Shown here in pieces: positions 18,353 through 60,094 of a DNA stretch of 64,000 nucleotides. The notes below the pieces were generated by a model. That model was not told where the DNA came from and did no database searches. It was given only the letters and a program-made list of their open reading frames with translations. Both the position numbers and the translations under genes were made by a program. Positions within the stretch are counted from its first letter, which is position 1, and the number at the start of each line of letters is the position of its first letter. Source of the DNA: Desulfoferula mesophila (GTDB lineage Bacteria; Desulfobacterota; Desulfarculia; Desulfarculales; Desulfarculaceae); contig NZ_AP028679.1 of the NCBI RefSeq assembly GCF_037076455.1, positions 2,371,501-2,435,500 on the forward strand, in the 5' to 3' direction.

Positions 18353-18356
18353 AGCC

Positions 18357-35926: not shown

Positions 35927-35928
35927 GG

Positions 35929-37083: not shown

Positions 37084-37191
37084 TGGTTGCTTTCCATGTC
37101 TGTAAAGGGTCGGCCACGACGCTGCGCGGTGAGACCGGCCATCCGGATCAATTTTTATTCAAGACTCACACCCCTAACGAAGGGTGACGGC

Positions 37192-37972: not shown

Positions 37973-37976
37973 GACC

Positions 37977-38792: not shown

Positions 38793-38796
38793 GACC

Positions 38797-39924: not shown

Positions 39925-39974
39925 GTTACCTCTTTCTATTTTTGTTCCCGGGGACGGCTTGGCCACCTCGGTTT

Positions 39975-41492: not shown

Positions 41493-41508
41493 GGTGTGAC
41501 TCCTTGGC

Positions 41509-42027: not shown

Positions 42028-42092
42028 ACCAATCTCCGTTAAGGGTGGGCCCCAGCCGGGACCCACCCAGAAGGCGGTCAATCACGCGTCGG

Positions 42093-43079: not shown

Positions 43080-43118
43080 CAATTCCCTCCAGTTTTTGCC
43101 GCCTAGATGTGCGGCAGG

Positions 43119-43862: not shown

Positions 43863-44202
43863 ATCCCAAAGTGCTTGGAATTGGTTGACTGAAATTTTTC
43901 TCACCGGTAACTATTCTAATCATCTTAAAGTACATATTATTATAATAGGTAGCATTTACAATAGGTTATACGCCGAAACCCTTCCCGAGAGCGCTCCGAG
44001 TTTTTGGACCGATCACCTACGGCAATCGTTTTTTAATTTACTGGTTTCGTCCGCCGCGCTCGAACCGCCAGAGGCTCAACCCAACGCTTGCCGCGAACGA
44101 TCCCGGTGAGCTAGGACCCTGAACCTGCTTTCGGGACCCGGGAGGTCAACCGTCTGCCTTCCAAGCGCACCATCACGCCTCCCGGGGCTAAAACCGTCTT
44201 TC
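43863..44202. other. Non-coding gap upstream of the GntR gene
   Basis: About 340 bases between the GntR gene and the fumarase beta stop. The part next to the GntR gene (43905-43980) is AT-rich, with TATAAT-like boxes near 43938-43945 on the minus strand, and is the natural place for the GntR promoter and operator, though no clean half-sites stand out. The other half is GC-rich with the inverted repeat listed separately. No gene is seen. Confidence 0.5.
44137..44186. repeat. 9-bp perfect inverted repeat behind the fumarase genes
   Basis: CCCGGGAGG at 44137-44145 and CCTCCCGGG at 44178-44186, 32 bases apart, just past the end of the fumarase beta gene. Short direct copies of AACCGTCT lie inside and beside it (44149 and 44192). 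It could form a long-loop hairpin at the transcript end, but there is no T-run, so it is not called a terminator. Confidence 0.45.
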
Positions 44203-44793
44203 CTAGGCAACGCCTAGTTTTTGGTAAATTCCCGGCAGGCGGCGTTCCGCCTCCGCCTTGATCTCGAAGTATCGATGGCCGCCGTGGCTGTCCATGGCCA
44301 CAGTCAGTGGACCGAAGTCTTTAACCCGGAACTTGTAGAGCGCCTCCGGATGCAGGTGCTCCCAATAGACCTCTTCGACCTCTTCGATCTGCTCGGTTTC
44401 TAGGGATGCCGCTCCCCCCACAATCGCCAGATAAACCGCACCAAATTTTTGCATGGCGTCCAGGCTTTGCTGGTATTGGCCGCCCTTGCCGATCACCGCG
44501 CGCACCCCGTACTTCTCAATCAAGGCCGGGGTAAAGCGATCCATGCGGCCGCTGGTGGTGGTGCCAACGCAGATTTTCTCCCACTTGTCGCCCACCTTGC
44601 GCAGGCTGGGCGCTGTGTGAATGATGGGAAAGCCCGCCAAGCTCACCGGTGGCTCGTGCTGCTGGTCGAACATATAGATTTGGGTCAGGTCCCTGATGCC
44701 GAACAGGGTCCCATCGAAAAAAACAATGTCGCCGATCTTGAGTTGGCGCATGTCCTGCTCTGAAAAAGGCGTTTGTAGATGATAGGTAGCCAT
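44203..44793 (-). CDS. Class I fumarase / tartrate dehydratase-type beta subunit
   Basis: A 196-residue beta subunit. It begins with the LQTPFSEQDMRQLKIGDIVFFDGTLF-type start of the FumA C-terminal family and has GPTTSGRMD-like sequence as CVGTTTSGRMDRFTPALIEKYGVRAVIGKGG, then YWEHLHPEALYKFRVKDFGPLTVAMDSHG. With the alpha subunit upstream it hydrates fumarate to malate, or acts on tartrate. The ATG has AGGAGG upstream. It probably ends a long minus-strand operon. Confidence 0.9.
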   Translation of the reverse strand: MATYHLQTPFSEQDMRQLKIGDIVFFDGTLFGIRDLTQIYMFDQQHEPPVSLAGFPIIHTAPSLRKVGDKWEKICVGTTTSGRMDRFTPALIEKYGVRAVIGKGGQYQQSLDAMQKFGAVYLAIVGGAASLETEQIEEVEEVYWEHLHPEALYKFRVKDFGPLTVAMDSHGGHRYFEIKAEAERRLPGIYQKLGVA

Positions 44794-44811: not shown

Positions 44812-45693
44812 CTAGAAGCCGTATTCGACCTTGCCATCGGGGTGAATGGTGGCCCGGGCCCGGCGCGCCGGCCAACACTGGGTGTTGACCGCCACCGGGT
44901 TCTGGGTGATGTGGGTATAGGCCCACTCGATGTGCACCGCCAAGGTGGAGATGTCCCCGCCCAGACCCATGGGGCCGATGCCCGTGGCGTTGATGGCTTC
45001 CTCCAGTTCCTCCTCCATCTTGGCGATCTCCGGGTCCTCGCTGCGCTGTCCCACCGGCCGGGCGATTGCCTCCTTGGCCAAGCGCATCACTAGATCGGCG
45101 GTGCCCCCGATGCCCACCCCGATAATGCCTGGAGGACAAGGGTTGCTGCCCGAGGCAATGTAGGTGTCCAGCACAAACTTCTTCAGGGCGTTCTTGCCGT
45201 CGGCCGGAATGAACATCTTCATGGTGCTCATGTTTTCCGAACCGGACCCCTTGGGGATCATGAGGATGTCCAGGGTGTCGGAACCCTCCACGAAATCCCA
45301 GTAAACCACAGGCAGGCCGCGGCCCACCGAGTTCTGGGGGTTGAGGCGGGTGAGGATGTGGGTGGAGCTGCCCCGGAAGGGGAAATCCAAGGTGGCGGCG
45401 GCGGCACCCTCACTCAGGCATTTTTTGATCTTGGCCCCGTTCCAGGCAAAGTCGCTTCCCACCTTAACGATGTAAATGGGCAGTCCGGTGTCTTGGCAGA
45501 CCAAGGTGTTCTTCTGGTCCGCTATATCGATGGCCTTGAACATGGCCTTGAAGACTTCTTTGGCCGTGGGCTGGGTCTCGCGCTCATAGGCCCGCTTGAG
45601 GGCCTGGCGCACGTCCGGCGGCAGATTCGTTAGAGCCCTTATGTAGAGCTGCTTGGCGGCCTCTTGCACTATGTTATAGTCAAAATCGCCCAT
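44812..45693 (-). CDS. Class I fumarase / tartrate dehydratase-type alpha subunit
   Basis: A 293-residue alpha subunit. The three cysteines binding the oxygen-sensitive [4Fe-4S] cluster are visible in VCQDTGLPIY, SNPCPPGIIGVGIGG and NTQCWPARRARA. GLGGDISTLAVHIEWAYTHIT precedes the last. The beta subunit gene follows after 18 bases. In context, with Sdh-like genes on the same strand and KorABCD-SucCD downstream, fumarase is the simplest role; tartrate dehydratase shares the same sequence pattern. ATG with AAAGGAGA. Confidence 0.92.
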   Translation of the reverse strand: MGDFDYNIVQEAAKQLYIRALTNLPPDVRQALKRAYERETQPTAKEVFKAMFKAIDIADQKNTLVCQDTGLPIYIVKVGSDFAWNGAKIKKCLSEGAAAATLDFPFRGSSTHILTRLNPQNSVGRGLPVVYWDFVEGSDTLDILMIPKGSGSENMSTMKMFIPADGKNALKKFVLDTYIASGSNPCPPGIIGVGIGGTADLVMRLAKEAIARPVGQRSEDPEIAKMEEELEEAINATGIGPMGLGGDISTLAVHIEWAYTHITQNPVAVNTQCWPARRARATIHPDGKVEYGF

Positions 45694-45784: not shown

Positions 45785-47698
45785 TTAAACCTCGGCCACC
45801 GTGGTGGCGACCAACTTTTTCTTGCGGTTCATCCAAGTGGCGACTCCGAAGATTACCAACGAGGGTATGTCCGAATAGAACTCAGGTATCAAGGCCCCCA
45901 CGCCGGCCAAGGCGAACAGGGCCCTCTCAATGGTGCTTAAACGCGCGTAGAAATAGCCCTCCATGGCCACAACAAGCCCGATAGTCCCCACTATTCCGGT
46001 GAAGAGCGACCACACAATGAAAGAGGGGGCGCCCATCATCAGGAAGGCGCCGTTGTAGATAAACATGTAGGGGACCAGGAACTTCACGAAGCCGAGCTTG
46101 GAGGCGATTACGCCCGTCTTCATCACGTTGCCGCCAGAGATGGCGGCTCCGGCGTAGGCGGCCAGGGCCACCGGCGGGGTTATCGCGCTGAGCAGGGCAG
46201 AATAGAAAACAAACATGTGCGCCGCTACGGGATTGGCCCCGAATTTGACCAGGGTAGGAGCGGCGATCATGGCGGCGATGATGTAGGCCGGCGCGGTGGG
46301 CACGCCCATGCCCAGGACCAGGCAAGAGACCATAACCAGGATCAGGGCGAGGGGGAATATGCCCATGGACAGCTCGGTTACAATGGTCACGAACTTGATG
46401 CCAAGGCCGGTTATATCCAGCACCCCCACCACGATGCCGGCGCAGCCGCAGGAAACCGCGATTACTATGCTGTTCTTGGCGCCCTGGATCAATGTTTCTA
46501 TGAAACCGCGTGGGGATAGACGGCTCTCTTTACGGAACTGGGCCACTACTACCAGGGCCACGATGGCTATGAAAGCGGCCCTGAAAGGCGTGTATCCCAT
46601 TACCAGCACCACAATCATCAGGATAATGGGAATAAAGAAGTGAGACCCGTGCTTGAGGGTTTCAATCAGGGAGGGCACCTCCTCCTTGGAAAGCCCTCGA
46701 AGACCCAGGCGCAATGCTTCCACGTGGGTGGAGCCGAACACCGCAACGTAGTACAGCAAGGCAGGTATCAAGGCGGCAGCGCAGATGGTCAGGTAAGGCA
46801 TACCCAGAATTTCGGCCATGATGAAAGCGGCCGCGCCCATGATGGGTGGCATGATTTGCCCGCCCGCACTGGCAGCCGCTTCCACAGCCCCCGCGAACTC
46901 AGCCTTATAACCCATCTTCTTCATTAGGGGTATGGTGAAGGTACCGGTGCCGTAGACGTTGGCTACAGAGTGCCCTGATACGGTGCCAAACAGGGTGCTG
47001 GCCAGCACGGCCACCTTGGCCGGGCCGCCAGTGGCCCGGCCCACCAGGGCCATGCTGAAATCGATGATAAATTTACCGCCGCCCGTTCGCTCCAGGAAGG
47101 CCCCAAAAAGGATGAATAGGAAAACAAACGTCGCCGAGACCCCCACAGGCACCCCGAAGATGGCCTGCGGAGTCAGGACCATGTGATCCAAAAATATTTT
47201 GAGGGGCGGCGTACGGATAGTGAAAGGATAAGGCAGATGGGCGCCGACCATGCAATATGCGACAAACACCAGGGCTATTATGGGTAGGGCTGGCCCCACC
47301 ACTCGGCGGGCCGACTCCAGGGTGAGCACCATCAGCATGATGCCGAATACAATGTCCCCAGTGGTCATCGGCCCGTAGTACCATTCCCGCCCCACAATGC
47401 GGTCATGGTCGAAAAACAAATAAGCCCCGATGATAAGACACAAGGCGGCCAGGGAAATATCTATGAAGGCATTGGTACGGGACGACCATTTGCGATTGGT
47501 CGGGAAACACAAGAATGCCAAGGTCATCAGCGTCATCAAGTGGATGGTGCGCTGCATGTAGGCTTCTACAACACCAAAGCCACCGGTGTAGAGTTGAAAG
47601 CAGCTTATGCCCACTCCCAAGACGCCAATGGCCACCTTTACTACTTTGAGGCTCACTCCGCTGTCGGCCTCTGTTGCTGCTCCCATTTCGCTAGGCAT
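45785..47698 (-). CDS. TRAP transporter, fused 4TM/12TM permease
   Basis: A 637-residue membrane protein joining the small (DctQ-like) and large (DctM-like) TRAP permease subunits. The first 200 residues hold about five helices; the rest has the DctM-type repeats, such as LFGTVSGHSVANVYGTGTFTIP and MGVPTAPAYIIAAMIAAP with ITPPVALAAYAGAAISG. Such fusions pair with TAXI-type binding proteins, and one is encoded just upstream. The start at 47698 follows GGGAGA. The pair probably imports an organic acid for this cluster; the substrate is unknown. Confidence 0.92.
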   Translation of the reverse strand: MPSEMGAATEADSGVSLKVVKVAIGVLGVGISCFQLYTGGFGVVEAYMQRTIHLMTLMTLAFLCFPTNRKWSSRTNAFIDISLAALCLIIGAYLFFDHDRIVGREWYYGPMTTGDIVFGIMLMVLTLESARRVVGPALPIIALVFVAYCMVGAHLPYPFTIRTPPLKIFLDHMVLTPQAIFGVPVGVSATFVFLFILFGAFLERTGGGKFIIDFSMALVGRATGGPAKVAVLASTLFGTVSGHSVANVYGTGTFTIPLMKKMGYKAEFAGAVEAAASAGGQIMPPIMGAAAFIMAEILGMPYLTICAAALIPALLYYVAVFGSTHVEALRLGLRGLSKEEVPSLIETLKHGSHFFIPIILMIVVLVMGYTPFRAAFIAIVALVVVAQFRKESRLSPRGFIETLIQGAKNSIVIAVSCGCAGIVVGVLDITGLGIKFVTIVTELSMGIFPLALILVMVSCLVLGMGVPTAPAYIIAAMIAAPTLVKFGANPVAAHMFVFYSALLSAITPPVALAAYAGAAISGGNVMKTGVIASKLGFVKFLVPYMFIYNGAFLMMGAPSFIVWSLFTGIVGTIGLVVAMEGYFYARLSTIERALFALAGVGALIPEFYSDIPSLVIFGVATWMNRKKKLVATTVAEV

Positions 47699-47883
47699 TC
47701 CAGTTCTCCCATGAACATCCATTTTAGTTAGCCTGCCTCGCCGCCTAGAACTGGGCCGCTTGGGGCCCGGGGGCACCGCGGCTCGGGTCGACGGAAACCG
47801 ATCCAGGCGAAACTGGCAAACAAGATGTTTTTATTGGGCCAGGCTGGGGGGCTTGGTGGTGGCCCCCAACCCGGCCGCTGTAA

Positions 47884-48897
47884 TTACTTGGGCAGCTGTA
47901 TGCCTCTCTCTTGATAAAATTTCTTGGCTGCCGGATGTAGGGGCAACTTGATGTTTTTGGCCATGCCGGCCGCGGTGAAGTTACTTAGGGCCTTGTGGAA
48001 CTTGCTGTGCGCCTCGGCGTTGTCGGCCAATGCCGTCAGGATGGCGGTGACCACGTCGTCGGGAATGCTGGCGTTGACGATAACCTCGCCCGAGTCGGTG
48101 GGGCATACCACCGCCTCGGTGATGCCCGGATAAGTGTTCGCCGGGATAGCATCGGTGTCAAAGCCGAACTTCTTATTGAGAATCTTGAAGAGGTTGTCGT
48201 CCCACTTTAGAATCTTCATCTCACGGGAGTTGGTCAGGTCCATGACCCAACCCATCTTGCGCACGCCCACCGCGAGGATGCCGTCGGCGTGGTTGTCCTT
48301 GACCAGGTTGACCGCGTCTCCCCAGGCGACGAAGTTCATCTTGCCGCCCCATTTCTCCAGGTCTTCCCAGCTCACGCCTTGGCTATTGAACACGTTGCGC
48401 CACATGAGCTCAGTGGTGGTGCCCTTTTGGATGGTACAGAGCTTGACGGGAATCTTTTTGCTGAAAAGCTCGGCCAAGCTGTTGACCGGCAGATCTTTGC
48501 GCACAATGGCGAAGTAGTACAAACGGTCCTGAGTGCCATACAAGGAGCGCACGTTGGGCAACGGCTTCTCAAAGGGCTTTGCCTTCTCCGAAGCCAAAGA
48601 GCACATAGCTACCGTGGTGGATCCGATGTCCATCTCACCCGAGTTAACCCGGTACAGGTTGCCCACCCATCCGCCTGGGACCACCGTCACATCAATACGG
48701 GGATAAGCCTCACGCACCGTTTTGGCCATGCCGGTCATCACCATGTAGCCGATACCGCCCACGGCACCGCCGCCGGCCTTGAGCACGGCGGAAGTATCTG
48801 GGCTGGGCGGCGCGGCGTTCGCCGCGGCGGGCAGCAGCCACATCAGACAGGCCGCGATCAAAAAGATAGGTTTCCAATGGCTAGCTTTCTTGGTCAT
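47884..48897 (-). CDS. TRAP transporter TAXI-family solute-binding protein
   Basis: A 337-residue periplasmic binding protein with a signal peptide ending near residue 28 (ANA). GGAVGGIGYMVMTGMAKTVREAYPRIDVTVVPGG and EMDIGSTTVAMC are the TAXI-type pattern; the second half has YPGITEAVVCPTD and LHPAAKKFYQERGI at the end. It delivers its ligand to the fused permease encoded downstream. ATG 48897 follows GGAGGGAG; the longer reading is not supported. Confidence 0.92.
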   Translation of the reverse strand: MTKKASHWKPIFLIAACLMWLLPAAANAAPPSPDTSAVLKAGGGAVGGIGYMVMTGMAKTVREAYPRIDVTVVPGGWVGNLYRVNSGEMDIGSTTVAMCSLASEKAKPFEKPLPNVRSLYGTQDRLYYFAIVRKDLPVNSLAELFSKKIPVKLCTIQKGTTTELMWRNVFNSQGVSWEDLEKWGGKMNFVAWGDAVNLVKDNHADGILAVGVRKMGWVMDLTNSREMKILKWDDNLFKILNKKFGFDTDAIPANTYPGITEAVVCPTDSGEVIVNASIPDDVVTAILTALADNAEAHSKFHKALSNFTAAGMAKNIKLPLHPAAKKFYQERGIQLPK

Positions 48898-48994
48898 CGT
48901 TCTCCCTCCAGTTTTTTCACCCAAATACATGGGTCGCTATTGACCAAGCCGGCTCCGGCTAACCTATGCGTGGTCGGTTGTTGCCCGCCAACGC

Positions 48995-50116
48995 TCACTT
49001 GACCAGGAAGGGAATTTCCAGGATCAAGGCGCTGGTGGGGCACTCGACCTCGCAGGGCAGGCAGTACCAGCATTCGTCGTAGTAATCCACGGGTTGGGCG
49101 CAGCGCAAACAGGGCACCGCGGCCAAGCTAGCATCTCCTTCTTCCAGGCTCCCATCCGCGGGTGGGACGTAGCTTGCGGCCAACAACCCCTTGGCCGCCT
49201 GCCAGCGCAGTTCGTTCACGCGTTGGGCGTCCACCCGGACCGGCAGGATTTTTTCCGATTCCAAAACGCGGGGAAGTTCAAGACTCTGGCCCCGCGCATA
49301 TCGGTCCACATAGCGCGCCGCCTTTTGGGCCGAGCCCATGGCCGCCACCTGGTTGTCCACTCCGTCCAGCATCTGGCCGGCGGCGAACAGCCCCTCCAGC
49401 GAGGTGCTCATCGTTTTGGTGTCCACCTTGAGGCGTCCCTCGGCGTCCAACTCGGCCCCCTCGCGGACCGCGAAGTCCACCTGGGCCTCTGGCCCCAGGG
49501 CCAGCAGGATGGCCAGAAAGTCGCGGCGCAGCATGGCCAGGTCGACGGAAGCGCCTATCTGCTTGCCCAGGCGTTGCTCCACGCCCAGGTCGGCCAGCAG
49601 ACCTATCTCGGCGGCGAGCATCTCCGGCGAAACCTGATCGCGCGCGCCCCCGCCAGCCTGGTCCTGGGCCTCGAACAGCACCACCTTGTGCCCCGCCTGA
49701 CGCAGGCGCACCGCGGCGGTCATGCCGGCCGGGCCGGCGCCCACCACCGCCACCTGCTCACCGGTATCGCTGGCCAAAACGAACCGATCCGCGGCGGGCT
49801 CAAAGCTTTCCACCAAATAGAGCTCCAGTGCGTGGATGGCCACTGCCTGGTCCACTCGGCGGCGGGTACAGGACTTTTGGCAGGGAGCCGGGCAGAGGTC
49901 GGCCAACAGCCGGGGAAAAGGCACGCTGTCGTGGATGGCTTCGGCGGCCTGGTGGGAGCGGCCCAAGGCGACCAAGGTGACAAATTGTTGCGGGTTTAGA
50001 TCGACCGGACAAGCGGCGCGGCAGGGCGGAGTTTGCACCCGGATGTTGTCCAGGATGCAGCGTTCGGCGCATTCGCCACAAGCCAGACATTTATCATTTT
50101 TTATGAGCAGAGTCAC
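48995..50116 (-). CDS. Fe-S/FAD protein, GltD-like with terminal ferredoxin motifs
   Basis: A 373-residue protein. It starts with one [4Fe-4S] motif, CLACGECAERC, then a GltD-like cysteine-rich part: CRAACPVDLNPQQFVTL, LCPAPCQKSC. A Rossmann FAD site follows, VAVVGAGPAGMTAAVRLRQAGH. It is shorter than GltD proteins, lacking most of the NADPH domain, and ends with another cluster pattern, CLRCAQP and CWYCLPCEVECP. It follows an AprA-like flavoprotein gene by 38 bases and is probably its electron partner. Starts at GTG 50116; an upstream frame overlaps the AprA-like gene. Confidence 0.78.
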   Translation of the reverse strand: MTLLIKNDKCLACGECAERCILDNIRVQTPPCRAACPVDLNPQQFVTLVALGRSHQAAEAIHDSVPFPRLLADLCPAPCQKSCTRRRVDQAVAIHALELYLVESFEPAADRFVLASDTGEQVAVVGAGPAGMTAAVRLRQAGHKVVLFEAQDQAGGGARDQVSPEMLAAEIGLLADLGVEQRLGKQIGASVDLAMLRRDFLAILLALGPEAQVDFAVREGAELDAEGRLKVDTKTMSTSLEGLFAAGQMLDGVDNQVAAMGSAQKAARYVDRYARGQSLELPRVLESEKILPVRVDAQRVNELRWQAAKGLLAASYVPPADGSLEEGDASLAAVPCLRCAQPVDYYDECWYCLPCEVECPTSALILEIPFLVK

Positions 50117-50154
50117 TCTAGGTCGTCTCCTCGGCCCAGCGCCGGATATCCCGC

Positions 50155-51837
50155 TCAGGGAGCGGCCGCCGGCCAAAGGCCTTGTTGCAGAGGCAACAAG
50201 TCGATGTCTCGCAAAGTCACCCGCGGTCTGCGTTGTTCATCGCCCTTGCTCAGGACCACGTGGCGCACCCACTCGTCGTCGTTGCGCTGTGGATAATCAG
50301 TGCGGTAGTGCCAGTAGCCCCAACGGCTTTCCGTACGGGCGAGAGAAGCGCAGCCGGAGAGGGTGGCCGTATCGATGATTGATTCGATCTCCAGAATCTT
50401 GCTGGCCCAGTGGGGGTCCGTGACACGCACTGTGCTGTCGAGCATGGTCGCGAAACGATCCATCCACTCCAGCCCCAGCTTGAGCTTGATTTCGTTCTTG
50501 GGCGGTACCAGGTAGTCGCCGATGAGGCGGCGCACCTTGTATTCGAACTGATGGGGGTCGACGGGCCCGTCCATCTTGAAGATGCCAGCCAGCTTGCGGC
50601 GGGCGCCGTCCACCCCGGCGGCCTCGGGGCTGGCCCTCTGCTCCGAGCGACAAATTTCGGCGGCGCGGTCTGCGGCGGCTTCCCCGAAGGCGAAGGCTCC
50701 GGTCAGGTGGCCCCGGGCCACGCAGGCGGCATCGCCGGCGGCCAGCAGCCCCCTCAGATTGGTCTCGCCCACTTGGTTTACCACCAGGCCGGCCTGGCCA
50801 TGGCCGCTGCAAAGGAAGTGCTCGGTGTTGTAAAGCTCTATGTCGGTCTTGCGGAAGTCTATTCCCCGGCCCTTGAAGAAGCGCTCCATCACCGGCCTCT
50901 CGGTGGTGAACAGAATGTCTTCTATCTCCTGGATCTTTTCCTCGGGTAGGTGCTTGAGCCGCATGAACACCGGGCCGCGGCCATCGGCGTATTCCTGCAC
51001 CAGGGTCTTGATAGAGATGTGGCCACCCTCGATAGGTTTGCCGAGGCCGTTGAGGGCCTGGGCCCCCCGGGTGAGGGTGATGTAGAGCAGCGGGGCGCCA
51101 ATGTCCTTGATGATGCAATAGCAGGTGGTGTACTCCATGCCGGTCAACTCAGCTCCGGCCCGGTAGGACATGGCCCAGCCGTCGCCGGTGTTGCCCGGGA
51201 AGTCGTAGACCCCATAGAGGTAGCCGGAGTTGGGCAAGCTGAAGCGGGCCAGGCCGCCGGAGCAGATGATGACAGCTTTGGCCCGGCAGATGACAAGCTC
51301 GCCGGTGCGCACGTTGTAGCCCAGCACGCCGGCCACCCGGTCGCCCTCCATCATCAGCTCGAAAGCCATGGTTCGGTTGATGACCCGGCAACCCATGTCG
51401 TACACCCGGCGGGCGATGATCTTCTTGAGGTCGGGCTCCTTCATGGTCACCAGGAACTCGCCCTTGGGGTGCACCTGCAGGGTTTCGTACTTGCCGTTTT
51501 TCATGGGGAAGTGAACTCCCCACGCTTCCAGTTTCTTGAGCAGCTCCCAGGAGCGGGCGGCCATCTCCAGAGAGGGCCCGCCGTCCACCACTCCCTCGCA
51601 GGCCAGGGTGGTGGCCTCCAGGTATAGCTCCGGGGAGGTGAAGCCCGGGATGGCCACGATGTTCAAGGCGTCCATGCCCATAGCTATGCAGCCCGAATAC
51701 ATTAGGTCGCCCTTTTCCATCACCGCCACCCGCAGATCGGGTGCGATCTCCTTGGCGCGGATGGCGGCCATGCACCCGGCGCTACCGCCGCCCACGATCA
51801 GGATGTCGGTTTCGATATGTCTCTCATGCTTAACCAA
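50155..51837 (-). CDS. AprA-like FAD-dependent dehydrogenase (fumarate reductase/APS reductase superfamily)
   Basis: A 560-residue flavoprotein. The FAD site is ILIVGGGSAGCMAAIRAKE at the N-terminus, followed by SGCIAMGMDALN, a pattern nearer to adenylylsulfate reductase alpha than to succinate dehydrogenase. GNTGDGWAMSYRAGAELTGME and LLAAGDAACVARGHLTGAFAFG are typical of the superfamily, and the C-terminal TESRWGYWHYRTDYPQRNDDEW is also AprA-like. It has no AprB neighbour; instead an unusual Fe-S/FAD protein follows. Its substrate is not APS for certain and remains unknown. TTG start at 51837, eleven bases after the cytochrome b stop. Confidence 0.8.
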   Translation of the reverse strand: MVKHERHIETDILIVGGGSAGCMAAIRAKEIAPDLRVAVMEKGDLMYSGCIAMGMDALNIVAIPGFTSPELYLEATTLACEGVVDGGPSLEMAARSWELLKKLEAWGVHFPMKNGKYETLQVHPKGEFLVTMKEPDLKKIIARRVYDMGCRVINRTMAFELMMEGDRVAGVLGYNVRTGELVICRAKAVIICSGGLARFSLPNSGYLYGVYDFPGNTGDGWAMSYRAGAELTGMEYTTCYCIIKDIGAPLLYITLTRGAQALNGLGKPIEGGHISIKTLVQEYADGRGPVFMRLKHLPEEKIQEIEDILFTTERPVMERFFKGRGIDFRKTDIELYNTEHFLCSGHGQAGLVVNQVGETNLRGLLAAGDAACVARGHLTGAFAFGEAAADRAAEICRSEQRASPEAAGVDGARRKLAGIFKMDGPVDPHQFEYKVRRLIGDYLVPPKNEIKLKLGLEWMDRFATMLDSTVRVTDPHWASKILEIESIIDTATLSGCASLARTESRWGYWHYRTDYPQRNDDEWVRHVVLSKGDEQRRPRVTLRDIDLLPLQQGLWPAAAP

Positions 51838-51847
51838 CTTCTCGCCC

Positions 51848-53257
51848 TTATTTATCCGTTTGCTGGGTTAGGGCCAGGGCCTGTTCCCGCGTCAACACCC
51901 GCTCACCTTTGCCGGCGAAATCCAGGCTGAGCAGGAAGGAGCCCAAAGCCTCCAGTTCCTGGGGATTAAGGTCGTACTTGGGCATGATGCTAAGCGGCTT
52001 GGTCTTCTGGGGGTTGCGGATGAAATCCACCAGGTACTTGCGGGTTCTGCCCTTGGCAACTATGTTGGACATATCCGGCCCCACTCGGTGACCGCCGCGC
52101 CCCATGATCTGGTGGCAATAGGCGCAATCCTTTTCCACCCACAAGCGGAGGCCCCGGATGGCCTGGGGAGAAAGCTTCTCCGCGGGCACCACCACCACCT
52201 GGCCGTAGGGCTTGGACTCGGCCACCCCCATTGCCGTGAGGTAGACCACCGCCACCAGGCAGGCCCCGGCCACGGCCAGCACCAGCGGCCGGCTGGAGGG
52301 TTCCTGGGAGTGGCTCTTGGACAAAAAGGGCAGCGCCACCAGCAGGGCCAACAGACCCAGGGGGATAACGAAGCTGCCTATGAGTTCGGCGCCCCCTTCG
52401 AAGTAGGTGAGCAGCTTGAACAGCCACATGTAGTACCATTCGGGCCGGGGCAGATAGGTCGGGTCAGGGGTGCGGGCCACTGCCTCCTGGGTGGGAGGCG
52501 AAACCAGCGAGAGGATGATCATAACCCCCAGCACCACCAGGAAGGCCACCGCCGCCTTGAGGGCGTGGTCGGGAAAGAAAAGGTAGGGCTTGTCATCCTT
52601 TCCCTGGGGCGCGCCGTGGTAAGAGATGTCGTGCAGGCGCACCAGGTACATGTGGATCATGATCAACAGGGCGGTGAGCGCGGGCAACAGCAGCACGTGC
52701 ACTGAGTAGAAGCGGGTCAGGGTGAGCCCGCTAACGTTGGGACCTCCCCGCAAAAGCCCGGCCAGGAAACCGCCGATCACGGGGATGTCCCCGGCCACGT
52801 TGGTGCCCACCACCGTCGCCCAGTAGGCCTTTTGGTCCCAGGGGAGCAGATAGCCGGTAAAGCCGAAGCCCAACACCATCAGCAGCAGGAACACCCCGCC
52901 CACCCAGGTCAGTTCCCGGGGGGGCTTGTAGGCCCCGTAGTACAGGTTGGAAAGCAGGTGAGCGGCCGCCAGTATGACCATCGCCGCCGCGCCGTAGTGG
53001 TGCAGACCCCGCACCAGGGCCCCGGCCGGCAACTGGGTCATGATGTAGCCGATGGACTGGTAGGCGTGGTCCGGCGAGGGGTTGTAAAAGGCGGCCAGCA
53101 GGATGCCCGTGACCACCTGGGCCACGAACAGCAACAGCAACAGGCTGCCCAGGGTGAAGCTCCAGTTCAGGCGGCCGGGCAGCGGCTTGTACAAGAAGGG
53201 CTTGAGGTGCTTTTCCCAACCCAAGCGCTCGGCCCAGAAGGATGCGAATCGCGACAT
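51848..53257 (-). CDS. Cytochrome b with C-terminal cytochrome c domain
   Basis: A 469-residue membrane protein. Residues 1-210 are the b6-type part with heme histidines near 86, 100, 187 and 202; residues 230-345 are the subunit-IV-like part with RPEWYYMWLF at 271, the quinol-oxidation motif. After the last helix comes a cytochrome c domain with CAYCH at 378-382 and a likely axial Met in SIMPKY at about 425. The fused c domain may replace cytochrome c1. The stop of the SdhB-Rieske gene lies right before its start, so they are one operon. A complete Q-cycle b subunit. Confidence 0.9.
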   Translation of the reverse strand: MSRFASFWAERLGWEKHLKPFLYKPLPGRLNWSFTLGSLLLLLFVAQVVTGILLAAFYNPSPDHAYQSIGYIMTQLPAGALVRGLHHYGAAAMVILAAAHLLSNLYYGAYKPPRELTWVGGVFLLLMVLGFGFTGYLLPWDQKAYWATVVGTNVAGDIPVIGGFLAGLLRGGPNVSGLTLTRFYSVHVLLLPALTALLIMIHMYLVRLHDISYHGAPQGKDDKPYLFFPDHALKAAVAFLVVLGVMIILSLVSPPTQEAVARTPDPTYLPRPEWYYMWLFKLLTYFEGGAELIGSFVIPLGLLALLVALPFLSKSHSQEPSSRPLVLAVAGACLVAVVYLTAMGVAESKPYGQVVVVPAEKLSPQAIRGLRLWVEKDCAYCHQIMGRGGHRVGPDMSNIVAKGRTRKYLVDFIRNPQKTKPLSIMPKYDLNPQELEALGSFLLSLDFAGKGERVLTREQALALTQQTDK

Positions 53258-54517
53258 CTAGGCCTCCAGCACATAGAGTTGGCCGCCGCTGACTTTGGTC
53301 TCGTAGCGGTCCAAGGGCCGTGGCGGGGGACCGGATTTAACCGTGCCGTCGGGGAAGAAGGTGCCCCCGTGGCAGGCGCAGAGGAACAGCTTTTTCTGCT
53401 GGTCCCAGTGCACGGTGCACCCCAGGTGGGTGCAGCGGCTGTTGAAGGCGGTGACCTTGTTCTTTTCCCGGTCCATCTCCACCAGCACTGGCTTGTGTTC
53501 CTGGCGCTTGTAGAAGCCGTCTTCTAGGGAATAGTCGGCGTAGATGGTTAGCACCTCGCCGGGGGCGGCGGTGAGTTTTTCCAGGGGCCCCAGAGACACC
53601 CACTTGCACTCGGGCTTTTTGAAGGCGGCCGAGAGGGCTGAAACAGAAACCAGGCCGACCAAAGCGGCTCCGGCCACCACGCCCAGGCTCACCGCGCTAC
53701 GGCCCAGGAAGCGCCGCCGGCTCATCTCCGGGGTCAGAGGTTCCGGGGCGGGCAGGGCCACGGGCTCGGGGGCGGGGCTCAGGCGCTGAGCAAGGCCCGG
53801 CCCCTGGCTTATGGCCATGCGGTGAATGTACTTGATGGCCCGGGTGGGGCTGATTTCCTTGGGGCAGACCTCGGTGCAGTTGAACTCCAGGCGGCAGTTG
53901 TAGCAGGACTCCATGGCCGTGGCCAGGCGTTCGTCGTGCAAGCCGTCGCGGCTGTCGGCCAAGAGGGTCATGGAACGGTTGAGCGCGGCCGGACCCAGGT
54001 AGTCCTTATGCCAGAAGGCCATGGTGCAGCTGGAAACACAGCAGCCACAGGCTATGCAGTCGGTGGCCATGTCAATGGCCTTGCGTTCCCAGGTATCGGG
54101 CCGCACAATCGCCGGCTCGCTGGCCTCCTCGGCCGGATCGAAGTAAGGCATGGCCTCTTCGTACTTCTTGAAAAACGGTTCCATGTCCACCGTCAGGTCC
54201 TTGACGATGGGGAAATGATTCAAGGGCCGCAGGGTGATCTCCGGGGTTTTGAGATCGGCCACCACCGTCTTGCAGGCCAGGCCCTCCTTGCCGTTGATGA
54301 CCATGCCGCAGGAGCCGCACATGGCCACCCGACAGGCATAGCGGAAGGACAGGCTCTGGTCGTGCTCCCGTTGGATCCTGAAAAGCACGTCCAGGATGGT
54401 GGTCGCGTAGTAGTCCTCGATCTCCAAGTCAAAGGTGTCGAAATGTCCCTCGCCGCCCTTGGCAGGGTCGTAGCGAAATACCTTGAAAGTCTTTTTACCG
54501 CCCTTAGTCTCTGCCAT
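53258..54517 (-). CDS. SdhB-type iron-sulfur subunit fused to a Rieske protein
   Basis: A 419-residue protein in one uninterrupted frame. Residues 1-240 are a full succinate dehydrogenase/fumarate reductase iron-sulfur subunit: [2Fe-2S] cysteines at 62, 67, 70 and 82, CIACGCCVSSC at 154-164 and SCYNC...NCTEVCPK at 204-220. A proline-rich linker follows, then a twin-arginine motif MSRRRFLG at 265, one transmembrane helix (about 274-298) and a Rieske domain with CTHLGC at 362 and CACHGG at 380. Both halves have every metal ligand. Topology is consistent: SdhB inside, helix, Rieske outside. The internal ATG at 265 has GGAG directly against it, so separate translation is not well supported. Confidence 0.88.
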   Translation of the reverse strand: MAETKGGKKTFKVFRYDPAKGGEGHFDTFDLEIEDYYATTILDVLFRIQREHDQSLSFRYACRVAMCGSCGMVINGKEGLACKTVVADLKTPEITLRPLNHFPIVKDLTVDMEPFFKKYEEAMPYFDPAEEASEPAIVRPDTWERKAIDMATDCIACGCCVSSCTMAFWHKDYLGPAALNRSMTLLADSRDGLHDERLATAMESCYNCRLEFNCTEVCPKEISPTRAIKYIHRMAISQGPGLAQRLSPAPEPVALPAPEPLTPEMSRRRFLGRSAVSLGVVAGAALVGLVSVSALSAAFKKPECKWVSLGPLEKLTAAPGEVLTIYADYSLEDGFYKRQEHKPVLVEMDREKNKVTAFNSRCTHLGCTVHWDQQKKLFLCACHGGTFFPDGTVKSGPPPRPLDRYETKVSGGQLYVLEA

Positions 54518-54534
54518 TGCTCTCTTCTGCTTGC

Positions 54535-54876
54535 CTAGTAGATGCCAAACCAAACTATGGCCAACATGACCGCGCCCAGCAGACCCAAGCCCGCCAGCAA
54601 CAGCTTCTGGTAGCGCACGTGCACCAGACCGAAGTCGATTAGTATTACCCTGAGGCCCAGCACCGCGTGGAAGGTAACCGTGAACAGCAGACAGAACTGC
54701 AGGAGAGGGCGATAGGTCAAGGTCAGGTGTAGTACCAGGAACACCAAGATGGCCAGCGCCGAGATGCGCTGCCAAAGCCATGCCCACATGCCGGCCTGCG
54801 TGGCGCGTATCCGGTTGGGGTCCAGCACGCCGCGGTGCAGGGGCTGCCTGTAGTTCAATTTATTTGCAATAGTCAC
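54535..54876 (-). CDS. Succinate dehydrogenase membrane anchor subunit (SdhC/D-like)
   Basis: A 113-residue membrane protein with three predicted helices, between the flavoprotein and iron-sulfur genes. The first helix segment has WAWLWQRISALAILVFLVLHL and the second FHAVLGLRVILIDFG; the two histidines are candidates for heme b ligands, as in Sdh anchors. Only one anchor gene is present. The start is placed at the GTG at 54876 with AGGAG ten bases upstream; a GTG at 54909 is possible. It anchors the complex and holds the quinone site. Confidence 0.85.
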   Translation of the reverse strand: MTIANKLNYRQPLHRGVLDPNRIRATQAGMWAWLWQRISALAILVFLVLHLTLTYRPLLQFCLLFTVTFHAVLGLRVILIDFGLVHVRYQKLLLAGLGLLGAVMLAIVWFGIY

Positions 54877-54919
54877 TGCTGCTTTTCTCCTCACAGCTAA
54901 TGAGATCACCGTCCGAGAA

Positions 54920-56644
54920 TTAGGCCTCTTTCGGGGCAGCGATGCTCGGCGGCGACGCGTACTTTAAATCCACCGGCCTTTTTTCGGTCACCGGCCGTCC
55001 GTCTTCTCCCCGCCGGAGGAAAATGTTGTAAAGGCCAGTGGCATCGTTTTGCTCGGGGAAGTCCGACCGGGCGTGAGCCCCCCTGGTCTCCTCGCGCAGG
55101 CTGGCCGACTTGCTAGACATGCGGGTGAAGTCCAGCATGTTCACCAGGCTGAGCCACTCGCCCCAGATCATGTTGTAGTTGGTTTCCTTGGGCACCTTGG
55201 CCTGCATGGCCTCGGCCATGAGCTCCTCGACCTCTTCCTGGGCCTCGGCCAAGGCCTCGCCCTGGCGCACGATGCCCACCTTGATCCAGTTGAGCTCGCG
55301 CAGACGATCGCGCAGGTCGGCTGGTACCGGGCCGCTGACGCGTCCCAGGGGAGCCCGGTAGTGGTCGGCCAGGCCCTGGACCATCTCCGGGTCCGATTCG
55401 GGGATGTCGCGGTCGGTGGCCAGGAAACGGGCCATGGCCTTACCGGATTGGCGCCCAAAGACGCAGGAGTCTGCGATACCGTTGCCGCCCAGGCGGTTGG
55501 CGCCGTGCACTCCGCCGGCGTCCTCTCCGGCCACGAAAAGGCGGGGTATCGCGGTCTCGGTGTCCTTGTTGACCACCGCCCCGCCCATGAGGAAGTGGGC
55601 GGTGGGAGATACCTCCACCGGCTTTCGGGCCAAGTCGTAGCCGAACAATCGGGTTCGTTCGGTCATGCCCGGGAAATTCTTTTCCACGAAATCCTTGCCC
55701 AGGTGGGCCGCGTCGATCATCACCCCGCCGCCGGGGTAACCGCGACCGGCCATGATCTCCAGGTAGGAGGAGCGACTGACCACGTCGCGGGTGGCCCGCT
55801 CCTTTTTCTCGGGATCGTAGCGCAGCATGTAGCGCTCACCCTCCGAGTTGTAGAGATAGGCGCCGGCACCGCGCAGGCCCTCCTCCAGCAAGGCGCCTGC
55901 CACCACGCTTCCGGGAACGATGAGGCCGGTGGGATGGAACTGAATCATTTCCATGTCCATCATCTCCACCCCGGCCCGATAAAGCATGGCCAAGCCGTCG
56001 AGGCTCTTCTCCGGCCCCGGAGCGCAGAGGCGGTAGCAGGTGGGGCCGCCGCCTGTGGCCACCAGCGTGGCCGCGGCCTCCACCACCATCAGCTCCCCGG
56101 TGCGGATGTTCATCACCAGCGCGCCGGTGACCTGGCCGCGTTCGCGGTCATAGAGCAGGTCCAGGGCCCGGTGCTCCTCCAGCACCCGTATGCCCCGCTT
56201 CATGATCTGCTCGGTGGTGCGGCTGATGATCTCGATTCCGGTTAGGTCGCCCTTATGCACCGTGCGGTCAAAGGATTGGCCGGCGAAAGCCTTTTGATGG
56301 ACGGTTCCGTCGGGTTTGCGGTCGAAGAAGCAACCGTAAATGGTTTCCATCTCTTTGATGGTGTAGGTGGCCTGTTCTACCAGGGTCTTAGCCATCTCCT
56401 GGTTGTTAATGAACTGGCCGCCCTTCAGGGTGTCCATGAAGTGCTTCTGGTGGGAGTCACCCTGGTCCAAGACCACGTTGAAGCCGCCCTGCACCATGCG
56501 GCTGCACCCGCCCTTGCCGCGCAGCGCCTTGGTAACGATCAAGATGTTTAGATCTGGGTTGGCGTCATAAGCGTTGAGAGCGGCCAGTTGGGCTGCGGCC
56601 CCCATGCCAAGCGTCAACATATCTACTTTTATCTTAGGCAACAT
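54920..56644 (-). CDS. SdhA/FrdA-like flavoprotein subunit with altered flavin and substrate residues
   Basis: A 574-residue flavoprotein of the succinate dehydrogenase/fumarate reductase class. Substrate and catalytic motifs IQFHPTG, RDVVSRS, PTAHFLMGG and HGANRLGGN are present. Three departures stand out by eye: the usual GxGxxG reads LGMGAAA; the segment that normally contains the covalent-FAD histidine reads GCSRMVQGG, where Cys takes the His place; and the usual TEG of the substrate site reads LEEG. It may bind FAD non-covalently or use another dicarboxylate. ATG 56644 chosen over an upstream TTG. First gene of the sdhACB-bc set. Confidence 0.88.
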   Translation of the reverse strand: MLPKIKVDMLTLGMGAAAQLAALNAYDANPDLNILIVTKALRGKGGCSRMVQGGFNVVLDQGDSHQKHFMDTLKGGQFINNQEMAKTLVEQATYTIKEMETIYGCFFDRKPDGTVHQKAFAGQSFDRTVHKGDLTGIEIISRTTEQIMKRGIRVLEEHRALDLLYDRERGQVTGALVMNIRTGELMVVEAAATLVATGGGPTCYRLCAPGPEKSLDGLAMLYRAGVEMMDMEMIQFHPTGLIVPGSVVAGALLEEGLRGAGAYLYNSEGERYMLRYDPEKKERATRDVVSRSSYLEIMAGRGYPGGGVMIDAAHLGKDFVEKNFPGMTERTRLFGYDLARKPVEVSPTAHFLMGGAVVNKDTETAIPRLFVAGEDAGGVHGANRLGGNGIADSCVFGRQSGKAMARFLATDRDIPESDPEMVQGLADHYRAPLGRVSGPVPADLRDRLRELNWIKVGIVRQGEALAEAQEEVEELMAEAMQAKVPKETNYNMIWGEWLSLVNMLDFTRMSSKSASLREETRGAHARSDFPEQNDATGLYNIFLRRGEDGRPVTEKRPVDLKYASPPSIAAPKEA

Positions 56645-56757
56645 CGCGCTTTTCCCGGTGTACAACGAAGTCCATTTCTACTCCAGCCTCTCAGCGGGTA
56701 AGAGGCCGTGGCCCCGGCCGGCGCCCGTGGCGGGCAGCCAGTCGGGACCACGGGGGG

Positions 56758-57924
56758 TTAGGCGCTCTCGTAAAGCTTGGTGATGACGAACTCCTGGTGT
56801 CCCAGGACCTCCTGGCAGGTGAGGCGGCCGTTGCAGGTCCGCTTGAGCATGTCCATGAGACCGTCGCCGGACTGGTCCAGGGTCATCTCGCCGCGCAGGA
56901 TGGCCGAGCAGTCGTAGTCGATGTGCTCGCTCATGGTGGAGACGGTCAGCGGGTTGGCCGAAAGCTTGATCACCGGCTCGATGGGGTTGCCGATGATGTT
57001 GCCCTGACCCGTGGGGAACAGGTGGGCCACGAAACCGCCCGCCGCCCACAGAGTGACCGCCTCGGCCGCCGCGCTGCTGGTGTCCATGTACCAAAGGCCA
57101 GGACCGGTCGGAGTCTCCGCCTTGTCCAAGACGCCCACGTAAGGATGCTTCTTGCCCATCTTCTGCAGGTTGCCGAAGGCTTTCTCCTCGATGGTGGTCA
57201 GACCGCCACGGATGTTGCCCTTGGTCGGCTGGCTGCCCGAAAGGTCGTCGGTCTTGTTGGCCTCCACCATGGCCTGGTACTTGTCGAAGATGGCCATGAA
57301 GGCCTCGCCTAGTTCGGGCGTCGCCCCACGAGCCTTGCACCAGTGCTCCGCGCCGGTGATCTCAGAGGTCTCACCAAAGGAGCAGGTCGCCCCGGCGTCC
57401 AGCAGCTTGTCAAAAACGTTGCCCACCGTGGGGTTGGAGGCCAGACCGCTGGTGGTGTCGCTCTCGCCGCACTTGGTCGAAACCCAAATCTCGCTCAGGT
57501 CAACCTCTTCCCGCTTCAACTCGCTGGCCCAGTGCACGTATTCCTTGGCCTTCCAGGAGGCCTTGGCGATGGTGCCGATGTCGCCGGTGCGCTCGATGGA
57601 GAAGCCGGTCACCGGCTTGCCGGTCTCGGCGATGCCGTCCACGATGATGTTGGTCCACTCGGGCTCGATGCCGATCACCACCACCGCGGCCACGTTGGGG
57701 TTGGCCCCAGTGCCGATCAGGGTGCGGAAATACAGCTTGAGGTCCTCGCCGAACTGCAAACGCCCATAGGCGTGCGGAATGGCCTTGGTGCCCTTGATGT
57801 TGTTGGCCACGGCCTCGCAGGCCGCGTTGGAAAGGTCGTCCAAGGGAAGGATCAGGACATGGTTGCGGATGCCCACCCGGCCGTTCTCGCGACGGTAGCC
57901 TTTTACGGTTCCCAAATTGCTCAT
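56758..57924 (-). CDS. SuyB-like UxaA-family lyase, large subunit
   Basis: A 388-residue protein of the UxaA (altronate dehydratase) family C-terminal type. [27 protein letters not shown] at the start, [21 protein letters not shown], then [23 protein letters not shown] and [13 protein letters not shown] are highly conserved. From memory these blocks are closer to (2R)-sulfolactate sulfo-lyase beta than to altronate or galactarate dehydratases. That enzyme splits sulfolactate to pyruvate and sulfite. The separate small subunit just upstream also matches SuyAB. Sugar-acid dehydratase activity remains possible. Confidence 0.75.
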
Positions 57925-57926
57925 AG

Positions 57927-58226
57927 CTACCACCTCTTGGTCTTGAGATTGTGGATGTGCACGTGGTTGCCCTTTTTGATCTCGGCCACCACCTTGCCGA
58001 TGTCCTCGCCGTATTTGGTGACGCTGCCGCCGGTGGCCAGGTCGGTGAGGGCGATCTTGTGACCCAGGGGGATGTCGTCCAGGGCCTTGACCGTCAAGCC
58101 CTCCTGGGAGTCCATGTAAAGGCCCGTGGCATCGCTGCCTGCGGTGATGTCGACCGTGGCCACGCCCACGCTGTCGGCCTTTTCGTGAACCAAAAATTGG
58201 ATCATAGAGAAACCTCCCTCCTGCAA
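57927..58226 (-). CDS. SuyA-like UxaA-family lyase, small (SAF-domain) subunit
   Basis: A 99-residue protein with the SAF domain of UxaA/GarD proteins. [33 protein letters not shown] and [26 protein letters not shown] are the family pattern. It pairs with the large subunit two bases downstream. It is the first gene after the sigma-54 promoter at 58358-58373 and has a strong AGGAGGGAGG ribosome site. Confidence 0.82.
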
Positions 58227-58481: not shown

Positions 58482-58549
58482 TTATTTCGGTTCAAATTCG
58501 TTTATAAAAAACTGACCCGGTCCTTTTGATTTATAGGGAGGCTCATCGC

Positions 58550-60094
58550 TTGAAATCAAATGTGTGGGACGCCAGCGTCAAATATGAACTGCTACTCAAT
58601 GTCACCAACGCCATAATCACCCAGACCAACCGGGACGACCTGTTTTCCGCTCTGGCCAATGAATTGAAGAAGGTCGTGGCCTATGACCGCTTGAGTGTTT
58701 ACATTTTCGATCCCAAAGAGCAGGCACTGTCTTATTTCGCCACGGCCAACGGGGTGGTGCCCCAGGGCATGGAGAACCCTGCGGGGAGGCCCCTGGATAA
58801 AGCTTCCGTGGCGCAGCGGACTATAAACATCCGTAAGCCCTTAATAATCAAAGACCTGGCCACAGTGACCAATTTTTCCACGGTGCCGGCCATGCTCAGG
58901 GCAGGGCTACGGGCCACCATGGCCTTTCCCCTTATAGTGCGCAACGACGTCCTAGGTACAATGCACCTGTCGTTCAAAAAGCCCCCCGATGACTTCGAGA
59001 GCCTGTCCGAGATGTTGGCCGACCTATCCCATCAGGTTGCCATAGCAGTGGACAACATGTTGGCTCACACCCGTCTGCGCAACCTAAGCGACAATTTGGA
59101 GAAGCAAAAGCGCTACTTACAAAAGCAGGCCCACCGTGACTACCTGCAGGAGAAGTTCGTATTCTCATCGAAACAAATGGGCCAGGTAATACATGAGATT
59201 AACCTGGTTGCCAAAAGCGACGCCCCGGTTTTAATCACGGGGGAAACCGGCACCGGCAAGGACTACCTGGCTCACTACATCCATGACAGCAGTCTGCGCA
59301 GGGACAGCCTGCTGGTTAAAATAAACTGCCCCGCTTTGGCGTCCAGCCTGTTTGAAAGCGAGTTGTTTGGTCACTCGCGGGGCGCCTTCACCGGCGCCCA
59401 TGATAACCGGATGGGGCGTTTCGAGATGGCCGAAGGCGGGACCATCTTTTTAGATGAAATCGGTGACTTGCCTTTGGGCCTACAGGCCAAGCTACTCCAC
59501 GTATTACAGGACCACGCGTTCGAGCGGGTGGGCGACTCCCGCACAATCCAGGCGGACTTTAGGGTTATCGCCGCCACCAACCACGACCTGGACAGTGCCA
59601 TGGAGTCCGGCGCTTTCCGGCACGACCTTTTTTACCGCCTGGCCACCGTAACCCTTCAGATACCGCCCCTGCGCGAACGAACCGAGGACATCCCCCTGCT
59701 TATAGAGCGCTTTATCTCAGAGGAGGAAACCAACAGCAACATGGCGGCGCCCTCCTTCGATGCTTCGGCCATAGACATGCTCTGCGGCTACGGATGGCCT
59801 GGGAACGTAAGGGAACTTAAGAACTTCATCCGCAGGATCTTTCTTTTGAAGTCTGGCAAGAGGATTACCGAAAGGGAAGTTGCCCAATACATCGGGGATT
59901 CGCGGCAACCCTGCGGCGAAGACGTGGGCAGTTTGACCGAAATGGAGAGAAAAATAATCGAAAAGGCTCTGCAGGAATGCGGCGGGTTCGTGGGCGGCAA
60001 AAGGGGCGCCGCCCACAGGCTGAACTTGCCGACCTCGACCCTGCAATACCGCATAAAAAAGTTGGGGATCAATCCCAAGCATTTTGCGCGCTGA
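58550..60094 (+). CDS. Sigma-54-dependent activator with GAF sensor domain
   Basis: A 514-residue NtrC-family activator without a receiver domain. Residues about 20-180 form a GAF domain, then a short coiled linker. The AAA+ domain starts near 210: Walker A GETGTGKD, the sigma-54 contact loop RGAFTGA, Walker B GTIFLDEIGDL and RLATVTLQIPPLRER. The C-terminal Fis-type helix-turn-helix ends the protein: GGKRGAAHRLNLPTSTLQYRIKKLGI. It starts at a TTG (58550) with AGGGAGG upstream. It is divergent from the suyAB-like operon and very likely activates the sigma-54 promoter there in response to a small molecule. Confidence 0.92.
   Translation: MKSNVWDASVKYELLLNVTNAIITQTNRDDLFSALANELKKVVAYDRLSVYIFDPKEQALSYFATANGVVPQGMENPAGRPLDKASVAQRTINIRKPLIIKDLATVTNFSTVPAMLRAGLRATMAFPLIVRNDVLGTMHLSFKKPPDDFESLSEMLADLSHQVAIAVDNMLAHTRLRNLSDNLEKQKRYLQKQAHRDYLQEKFVFSSKQMGQVIHEINLVAKSDAPVLITGETGTGKDYLAHYIHDSSLRRDSLLVKINCPALASSLFESELFGHSRGAFTGAHDNRMGRFEMAEGGTIFLDEIGDLPLGLQAKLLHVLQDHAFERVGDSRTIQADFRVIAATNHDLDSAMESGAFRHDLFYRLATVTLQIPPLRERTEDIPLLIERFISEEETNSNMAAPSFDASAIDMLCGYGWPGNVRELKNFIRRIFLLKSGKRITEREVAQYIGDSRQPCGEDVGSLTEMERKIIEKALQECGGFVGGKRGAAHRLNLPTSTLQYRIKKLGINPKHFAR

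Follow-up and report, generated by a model that had tools for sequence, protein, structure and literature searches.

Whether an open reading frame that joins the iron-sulfur subunit of a succinate dehydrogenase (SdhB) to a Rieske protein encodes a genuine single polypeptide and, if so, what such a chain might do are the questions raised by one gene in the window, i.e., the whole 64,000-nucleotide stretch of Desulfoferula mesophila DNA analyzed here. The gene lies on the minus strand (53258–54517) and runs from an ATG at 54517 to a stop at 53258 as a single frame of 419 codons. The frame itself is uninterrupted over 53258–54787, 54517 being its natural ATG, and the plus strand has stops. Pfam detected a Fer2_3 [2Fe-2S] domain (residues 10–116, E 8e-32; 54170–54490), a Fer4_8 dicluster domain (residues 151–222; 53852–54067) and a Rieske domain (residues 342–405, E 3e-9; 53303–53494) in the product, whose match to the NCBIfam SdhB model PRK05950 exceeds the cut-off of that model. 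Between the two halves, the alignment places a 29-residue linker (residues 238–266; 53720–53806) and a twin-arginine (Tat) motif (R267 R268) with a single transmembrane helix (residues 265–300; 53618–53725), all on the same minus strand. The initial annotation, which had read SdhB, a twin-arginine motif, one helix and a Rieske protein in one frame, is thus borne out.

A one-genome oddity was rejected, as fused relatives are present in many assemblies. A search for SdhB plus Rieske in one chain, covering related genomes and one genome per species, returned the same architecture in 20 or more further assemblies, each of them independent, and 22 full-length fused proteins (that of the window and 21 others, all from independent assemblies) were aligned. 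Their hosts belong to Desulfarculales, Desulfobacterales, Desulfovibrionales, Nitrospirota, Acidobacteriota, Sumerlaeota and unplaced bins, and include a cultured isolate, Desulfovibrio cuneatus DSM 11391 (L054). Identity to the window protein over the full length is 83% within the same genus (Desulfarculaceae) and about 49–58% elsewhere. As in the SdhB of complex II, the cysteines of the 2Fe-2S cluster (C62, C67, C70 and C82) and of the 4Fe-4S and 3Fe-4S clusters (C154, C157, C160, C164, C208, C214 and C218) are invariant in all 22 sequences, as are the Rieske ligands. No stop or frameshift was found at the junction, which the initial annotation had singled out for checking. Between the window and the related locus L040, dN/dS was 0.12 for the SdhB part, 0.33 for the linker, 0.27 for the Tat motif plus transmembrane helix and 0.21 for the Rieske part; since all four values are below 1, all parts behave as coding sequence under purifying selection. 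Judged from these sequences, the fusion is real, far beyond chance. It is also rare and unevenly scattered: 10 of 199 genomes of Desulfovibrionaceae and 1 of 246 genomes of Nitrospirota carry it. Such a pattern would be expected of a catabolic island that moves horizontally.

The protein appears to span the membrane. Its Tat motif reads SRRRFLG and is followed by one hydrophobic stretch; across the alignment (consensus S-R-R-x-F-L), the RR pair is invariant and F270 and L271 are at least 90% conserved. The signal is oddly placed, being internal and behind a domain of ~260 residues. The linker in front of it is long, variable and poorly conserved: the distance from CPK, the last SdhB cluster motif, to RR ranges from 41 to 86 residues, with the frame always kept. 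In a sequence search of the PDB, no chain covered both halves; SdhB chains matched residues 8–237 and Rieske chains residues ~262–416. An AlphaFold model, as had been suggested, was built from the 22-sequence alignment (mean pLDDT 62) and gave a good Rieske head (pLDDT 79–95, residues 301–419), one helix (265–298) and a poor helical half of SdhB. When this model was used in Foldseek, complex II SdhB chains ranked first, followed by b6f-type Rieske proteins. The proposed topology, with SdhB on the cytoplasmic side and the Rieske domain outside, fits the cluster ligands, the conserved Tat motif and the operon. The Rieske boxes, CTHLGC and CACHGG, are of the low-potential type (Ser to Gly, Tyr to Phe), box 2 being CACHGGxF compared to the usual CPCHGSxY. 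In the yeast Rieske protein, loss of this Ser lowers the potential by ~130 mV and loss of the Tyr by ~65 mV, and Rieske potentials below 200 mV accompany low-potential quinones (PMC12954380). By this rule, the CACHGG-F box suits the fused protein to menaquinol; the potential predicted for its Rieske cluster is roughly +100 mV.

The gene order sdhA-sdhC-sdhB::Rieske-cytochrome b::c is kept in the 25 fused loci compared, as far as contigs reach. In the window, the cytochrome b gene (51848–53257, minus strand) begins on the base after the fusion stop, in agreement with the initial annotation, which had named it the matching partner; its 469-residue product combines b6 and subunit IV with a C-terminal monoheme c domain (CAYCHQ), as indicated by Pfam, alignment and tree. 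The Rieske boxes, signal anchor and adjacent cytochrome b expected of a Rieske/cytochrome b complex are therefore all found. Upstream on the minus strand are genes for an SdhC-like membrane anchor of 124 residues with three helices (54535–54909; domain profiles and helix analysis), an SdhA/TfrA-like flavoprotein of 581 residues (54920–56665; profiles and alignment), a SuyB-like large subunit of the UxaA family (388 residues, 56758–57924; Pfam and identity comparison) and, from locus comparison, a SuyA-like small subunit with a SAF domain (99 residues, 57927–58226). Complex II has two three-helix anchors or one of five or six helices, whereas this operon has a single three-helix anchor and no second anchor gene. 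A divergent sigma-54-dependent activator (58526–60094, plus strand) recurs at fused loci.

Downstream, also on the minus strand, are a second AprA/PRK08275-like flavoprotein (50155–51837) and an Fe-S/FAD oxidoreductase (48995–50176); only in the window and L040 does the former directly follow the fusion operon and the latter occur at a fused locus. Next are a TAXI-family TRAP solute-binding protein (47884–48930) and a TRAP fused permease (45785–47776), both from the locus view, after which domain searches found the alpha (44812–45693) and beta (44203–44793) subunits of a putative class I fumarase-type hydratase (fumarase/tartrate dehydratase). Genes for a tripartite tricarboxylate transporter, a 2-oxoacid:ferredoxin oxidoreductase and a succinyl-CoA ligase (35045–43904, minus strand) are located near the fumarase genes, and together these regions form a large C4-acid catabolic island. 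Among the 25 loci, with contig ends limiting several, fumarase-type genes were found in 18, SuyAB-like genes in 13, the sigma-54 activator in 17 and a TauE-type exporter in 7, and one locus with the fusion (L041) had no SuyAB or fumarase genes within about 7 kb.

With regard to the dehydrogenase, the dicarboxylate-site equivalents of H242, R286, H354 and R399 are kept in the SdhA of the fused operon. A succinate dehydrogenase combines this site with FAD held covalently through His; here, E. coli Thr254 is replaced by Glu (LLEEG), and GKGGC(S/T)R (GKGGCSR), which has no His, stands in place of RSHT, the stretch that holds the covalent-FAD histidine. Among NCBIfam models, this SdhA is matched best by the fumarate reductase TfrA. 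A conserved Cys (GC[ST]R) occurs near the FAD-link position throughout the LEEG-type clade, and the FAD in these proteins may be non-covalent or Cys-linked. In enzymes of the E. coli type, absence of the covalent-FAD histidine accompanies poor succinate oxidation, and a reductive direction is possible for LEEG-type SdhA since this histidine is missing. An ordinary succinate dehydrogenase of the TCA cycle was rejected: another SdhB is encoded separately in the genome (G000:C1:2851319), and the fused operon has an SdhA of the LEEG clade. The partner of the fusion is probably not a strict succinate dehydrogenase but a relative that acts on C4 dicarboxylates and belongs to an organosulfonate operon.

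Both SdhA features are also present in the aerobes Paracoccus versutus, Methylobacterium oryzae, Pseudomonas MPC6 and Sulfitobacter, and at least the EEG feature occurs in Rhodococcus RHA1 and two haloarchaea. Most of these LEEG-type genes adjoin a fumarase (in haloarchaea, an ArgH-like lyase), SuyAB-like genes, sulfite/sulfate exporters or sulfite oxidase, and the islands of the aerobic relatives also carry SlcC/ComC-like dehydrogenases. The annotated bacterial loci among them have two membrane anchors, and no Rieske gene was found in the stretches viewed at the aerobic and haloarchaeal loci. The SuyB-like protein of the window is 64–70% identical to plasmid SuyB-type proteins of Paracoccus, Cupriavidus, Methylobacterium and Rhodococcus, the criterion having been ~70% to characterized SuyB, and at most 40% identical to others; several of those plasmid genes adjoin SlcC-, ComC- or exporter-like genes or hpsN/hpsO. 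In Desulfovibrio DF1, SuyAB converts sulfolactate to pyruvate and sulfite (PMC6278857). With less certainty, the substrate may be a sulfonated C4 acid, with sulfosuccinate as the best guess: it would be oxidized to sulfofumarate by the SdhA-like enzyme and hydrated to sulfomalate by the fumarase-like enzyme, from which the SuyAB-like lyase would release sulfite directly or via sulfolactate. A sulfonated C4 dicarboxylate would be the simplest shared substrate because this route uses the known chemistry of each enzyme. The known SlcC-ComC-SuyAB pathway of sulfolactate (Desulfovibrio DF1, PMC6278857; Taurinivorans, PMC10507020) has a SuyAB-type lyase and exporters in common with these loci, which additionally encode an Sdh-like dehydrogenase and a fumarase-type hydratase; this addition suggests a step by which a C4 sulfonate would enter. 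In the open-access journal literature searched, neither a sulfosuccinate pathway nor a pairing of sulfosuccinate with sulfolactate was found. Possibly, therefore, a C4-sulfonate (sulfosuccinate-type) degradation module has gone unrecognized in anaerobes, aerobic Proteobacteria, Rhodococcus and perhaps haloarchaea.

Two groups of plasmid loci are of separate interest here. The Pseudomonas MPC6 plasmid (L106) and pTAV3 of Paracoccus versutus (L107) have sdhB-sdhD-sdhC-sdhA-fumarase operons in islands that also hold sulfite or sulfate exporters and sulfite oxidase; they are candidate sulfosuccinate-type degradation operons, undescribed in the papers searched. On two haloarchaeal plasmids (L110 and L111), LEEG-like SdhA and SdhB, for which no membrane anchor is annotated, adjoin an ArgH-family lyase, a TauE exporter and a SuyAB-like pair that is distant (35%), and this set would be an archaeal version of the presumed sulfonate module.

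Succinate dehydrogenase-like and Rieske/cytochrome b genes share one operon in four arrangements, two fused (F1, to which the window belongs, and F2) and two unfused (U1 and U2). F2 is a second, divergent fused family from two Desulfobacterota (L077 and L078), with a canonical SdhA and the order sdhA-sdhB::Rieske-cytb::c-sdhC. In L078 (L078:5892-13039), this forms a cluster sucC-sucD-sdhA-sdhB::Rieske-cytb::c-sdhC with 2-oxoacid oxidoreductase (Kor) genes beside it; here, a TCA-type succinate dehydrogenase itself appears to be fused to a Rieske protein. U1 (L035 and L079) has the order Rieske-cytb::c-sdhA-sdhC-sdhB, with the same kind of Sdh as F1 but a Rieske protein and cytochrome b::c from another lineage, and U2 (L036 and L082) the order sdhA-sdhB-Rieske-cytb. 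The separate, neighboring sdhB and Rieske genes of U2 also occur in G122 and G381, judging by stops at the junction. Upstream of the U1 operon of L035 (L035:9250-10725), a DsrK/HdrD-like Fe-S protein is apparently encoded in two frames, possibly because of a stop, a selenocysteine codon or a frameshift.

The 25 F1 proteins form one clade in the SdhB tree (100/99), and the trees of the Rieske part (97/91) and of cytochrome b (98/99) likewise recover them as monophyletic; thus, the three parts travel together. In the SdhB tree, U1 is sister to F1, followed by Rieske-less operons (L062, L080 and L081) and then F2, and a single SdhB clade of F1 and F2 was rejected (AU p = 0.016), which speaks against all fusions going back to one event. 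F1 and F2 do group weakly in the Rieske (95/44) and cytochrome b (46/67) trees, which leaves a lone fusion with later losses as the less likely course; in light of the SdhB result the covalent fusion probably arose twice. Together, the trees and arrangements indicate that Sdh-Rieske coupling has been assembled repeatedly. It is not obligatory, because L080 and L081, from the same phylum, have a LEEG-type SdhA with no Rieske gene beside it; these loci and Rhodococcus RHA1, an aerobe that generally is known to use menaquinone, also weaken the notion of the Rieske link as a marker of menaquinone organisms at large. Complete Rieske-linked operons have one SdhC-like anchor, compared to two in the related Rieske-less operons of L062, L080, Methylobacterium, Pseudomonas MPC6, Paracoccus and Sulfitobacter, as if the bc complex had replaced the second anchor.

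Our preferred reading, with a probability of about 0.6, is that the gene product is the subunit bridging complexes II and III in one fixed unit, which would act as a dicarboxylate:cytochrome c oxidoreductase. The tie between a dehydrogenase and a cytochrome bc complex, as claimed in the initial annotation, is favored by the operon, the conservation across phyla and the second fused family. Together with SdhA and the three-helix SdhC, the SdhB half would fold on the cytoplasmic side, the first ~260 residues staying inside because no export signal precedes SdhB, and the internal Tat signal would move the folded Rieske head over the membrane to dock on cytochrome b. A C4 dicarboxylate would donate electrons, which would pass from FAD through the 2Fe-2S, 4Fe-4S and 3Fe-4S clusters to menaquinone at the SdhB/SdhC site, and the quinol made beside cytochrome b would be oxidized at Qo, one electron going via the tethered Rieske head and the c-heme fused to cytochrome b to a periplasmic carrier and the other being recycled via the b hemes. 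As the Fe-S clusters of the two halves are on opposite sides of the membrane, the fusion would be a tether and not a wire; direct cluster-to-cluster transfer is thereby precluded, and quinone and cytochrome b must mediate. The fusion would set stoichiometry and nearness, with two of each subunit being probable because bc complexes are dimers, and prompt removal of quinol would favor oxidation of a substrate with a potential above that of the menaquinone pool. For sulfate reducers, a downhill acceptor above the Rieske protein is not obvious, which we count against the fixed unit. A bolder extension, which we regard as doubtful, is that quinone is handed from SdhC to Qo without equilibrating with the menaquinone pool, such that a C4 (sulfo)dicarboxylate of too high a potential is oxidized, the fusion having arisen at least twice and once in a TCA-type operon.

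The readings that deny a working single chain fare poorly. That sequencing or assembly joined neighboring sdhB and Rieske genes by mistake is hardly credible: although U2 relatives do have the two as separate neighbors, the same fusion recurs in more than 20 assemblies made independently, one of them of an isolate, its flanking genes are conserved and its linker is under selection, and the related loci refute an artifact at the junction. It is improbable, too, that the cell contains two proteins, either by cutting of the chain or by an additional internal start for the Rieske half. The window has an in-frame ATG just before RRR that would permit such a start, but GGAG directly abuts it, and because this Met is not kept in the family, a conserved internal start is unlikely; moreover, the linker frame is open in all 22 aligned proteins and Rieske proteins normally keep their Tat signal-anchor uncleaved.

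Readings that accept the chain but not the fixed unit require more attention. The fusion may simply be a tether that aids assembly, Tat targeting or stoichiometry between an ordinary Sdh and an ordinary bc complex with free quinone exchange, a possibility of some substance, even if clearly less probable than the fixed unit. The poorly conserved linker is in its favor, as are the unfused one-operon arrangements U1 and U2, which indicate that covalent linkage is not essential, while the two fused families outside one SdhB clade and the single anchor of complete Rieske-linked operons suggest a closer structural partnership. The complex might also run in reverse as a (sulfo)fumarate reductase fed by pool quinol, with the bc part balancing or recycling electrons. 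The TfrA match and the missing histidine agree with this, yet we consider it unlikely, since the aerobic relatives (presumably using ubiquinone) are in degradative islands, in which oxidation would make more sense than reduction, F2 with its canonical SdhA adjoins sucCD and 2-oxoacid oxidoreductase genes, and the Rieske/c branch would make no sense for a simple quinol:fumarate reductase.

Returning to the fixed complex II-III unit, no report of a single SdhB-Rieske chain was found in the open-access journal literature searched. A Rieske-type cluster is present in the six-helix membrane part of mycobacterial Sdh1, a class F complex II (7d6v; PMC10238741), whereas the operon described here has a three-helix anchor and a b6f-like head on SdhB that would partner cytochrome b. 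Supercomplexes known from some protists, Tetrahymena and Perkinsus (CII2CIII2CIV2), similarly associate respiratory complexes physically, but in the present case the link between II and III is one polypeptide from a dedicated operon; to our knowledge, the II-III association in those supercomplexes is non-covalent. Fixed II-III working and quinone channeling have long been argued, and a natural SdhB-Rieske chain in a cultivable strain makes both testable. It also poses the question of how Tat deals with a signal behind a cytoplasmic Fe-S domain of ~260 residues.

Compared to complex II (SdhABCD, E. coli 1nek), SdhA, SdhB with all cluster ligands and an SdhC-like anchor are shared, whereas the Rieske domain on SdhB, the one three-helix anchor, the T254 to E change, the lack of the covalent-FAD histidine, the SdhB H207 to R change and an extra invariant Cys before the 3Fe-4S cysteine are different. 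The latter, C205 (53903–53905), is located three residues before the first 3Fe-4S ligand of the second motif (CYNCRxEFNC) and is invariant in F1, and E211 corresponds to a hydrophobic residue in E. coli type enzymes; this might alter the 3Fe-4S cluster. Rieske/cytochrome b of bc1/b6f complexes have the Rieske boxes, Tat signal anchor, subunit IV-fused cytochrome b and C-terminal c-type heme in common with the window proteins, which differ in the CACHGG box 2 and in the whole SdhB at the N-terminus of the Rieske protein; the closest solved Rieske structures are Chlorobaculum 8hn2 and cyanobacterial PetC. A second, ordinary pair of Rieske and cytochrome b6 genes, common to congeners, is located elsewhere in the window (17867–18983, plus strand).
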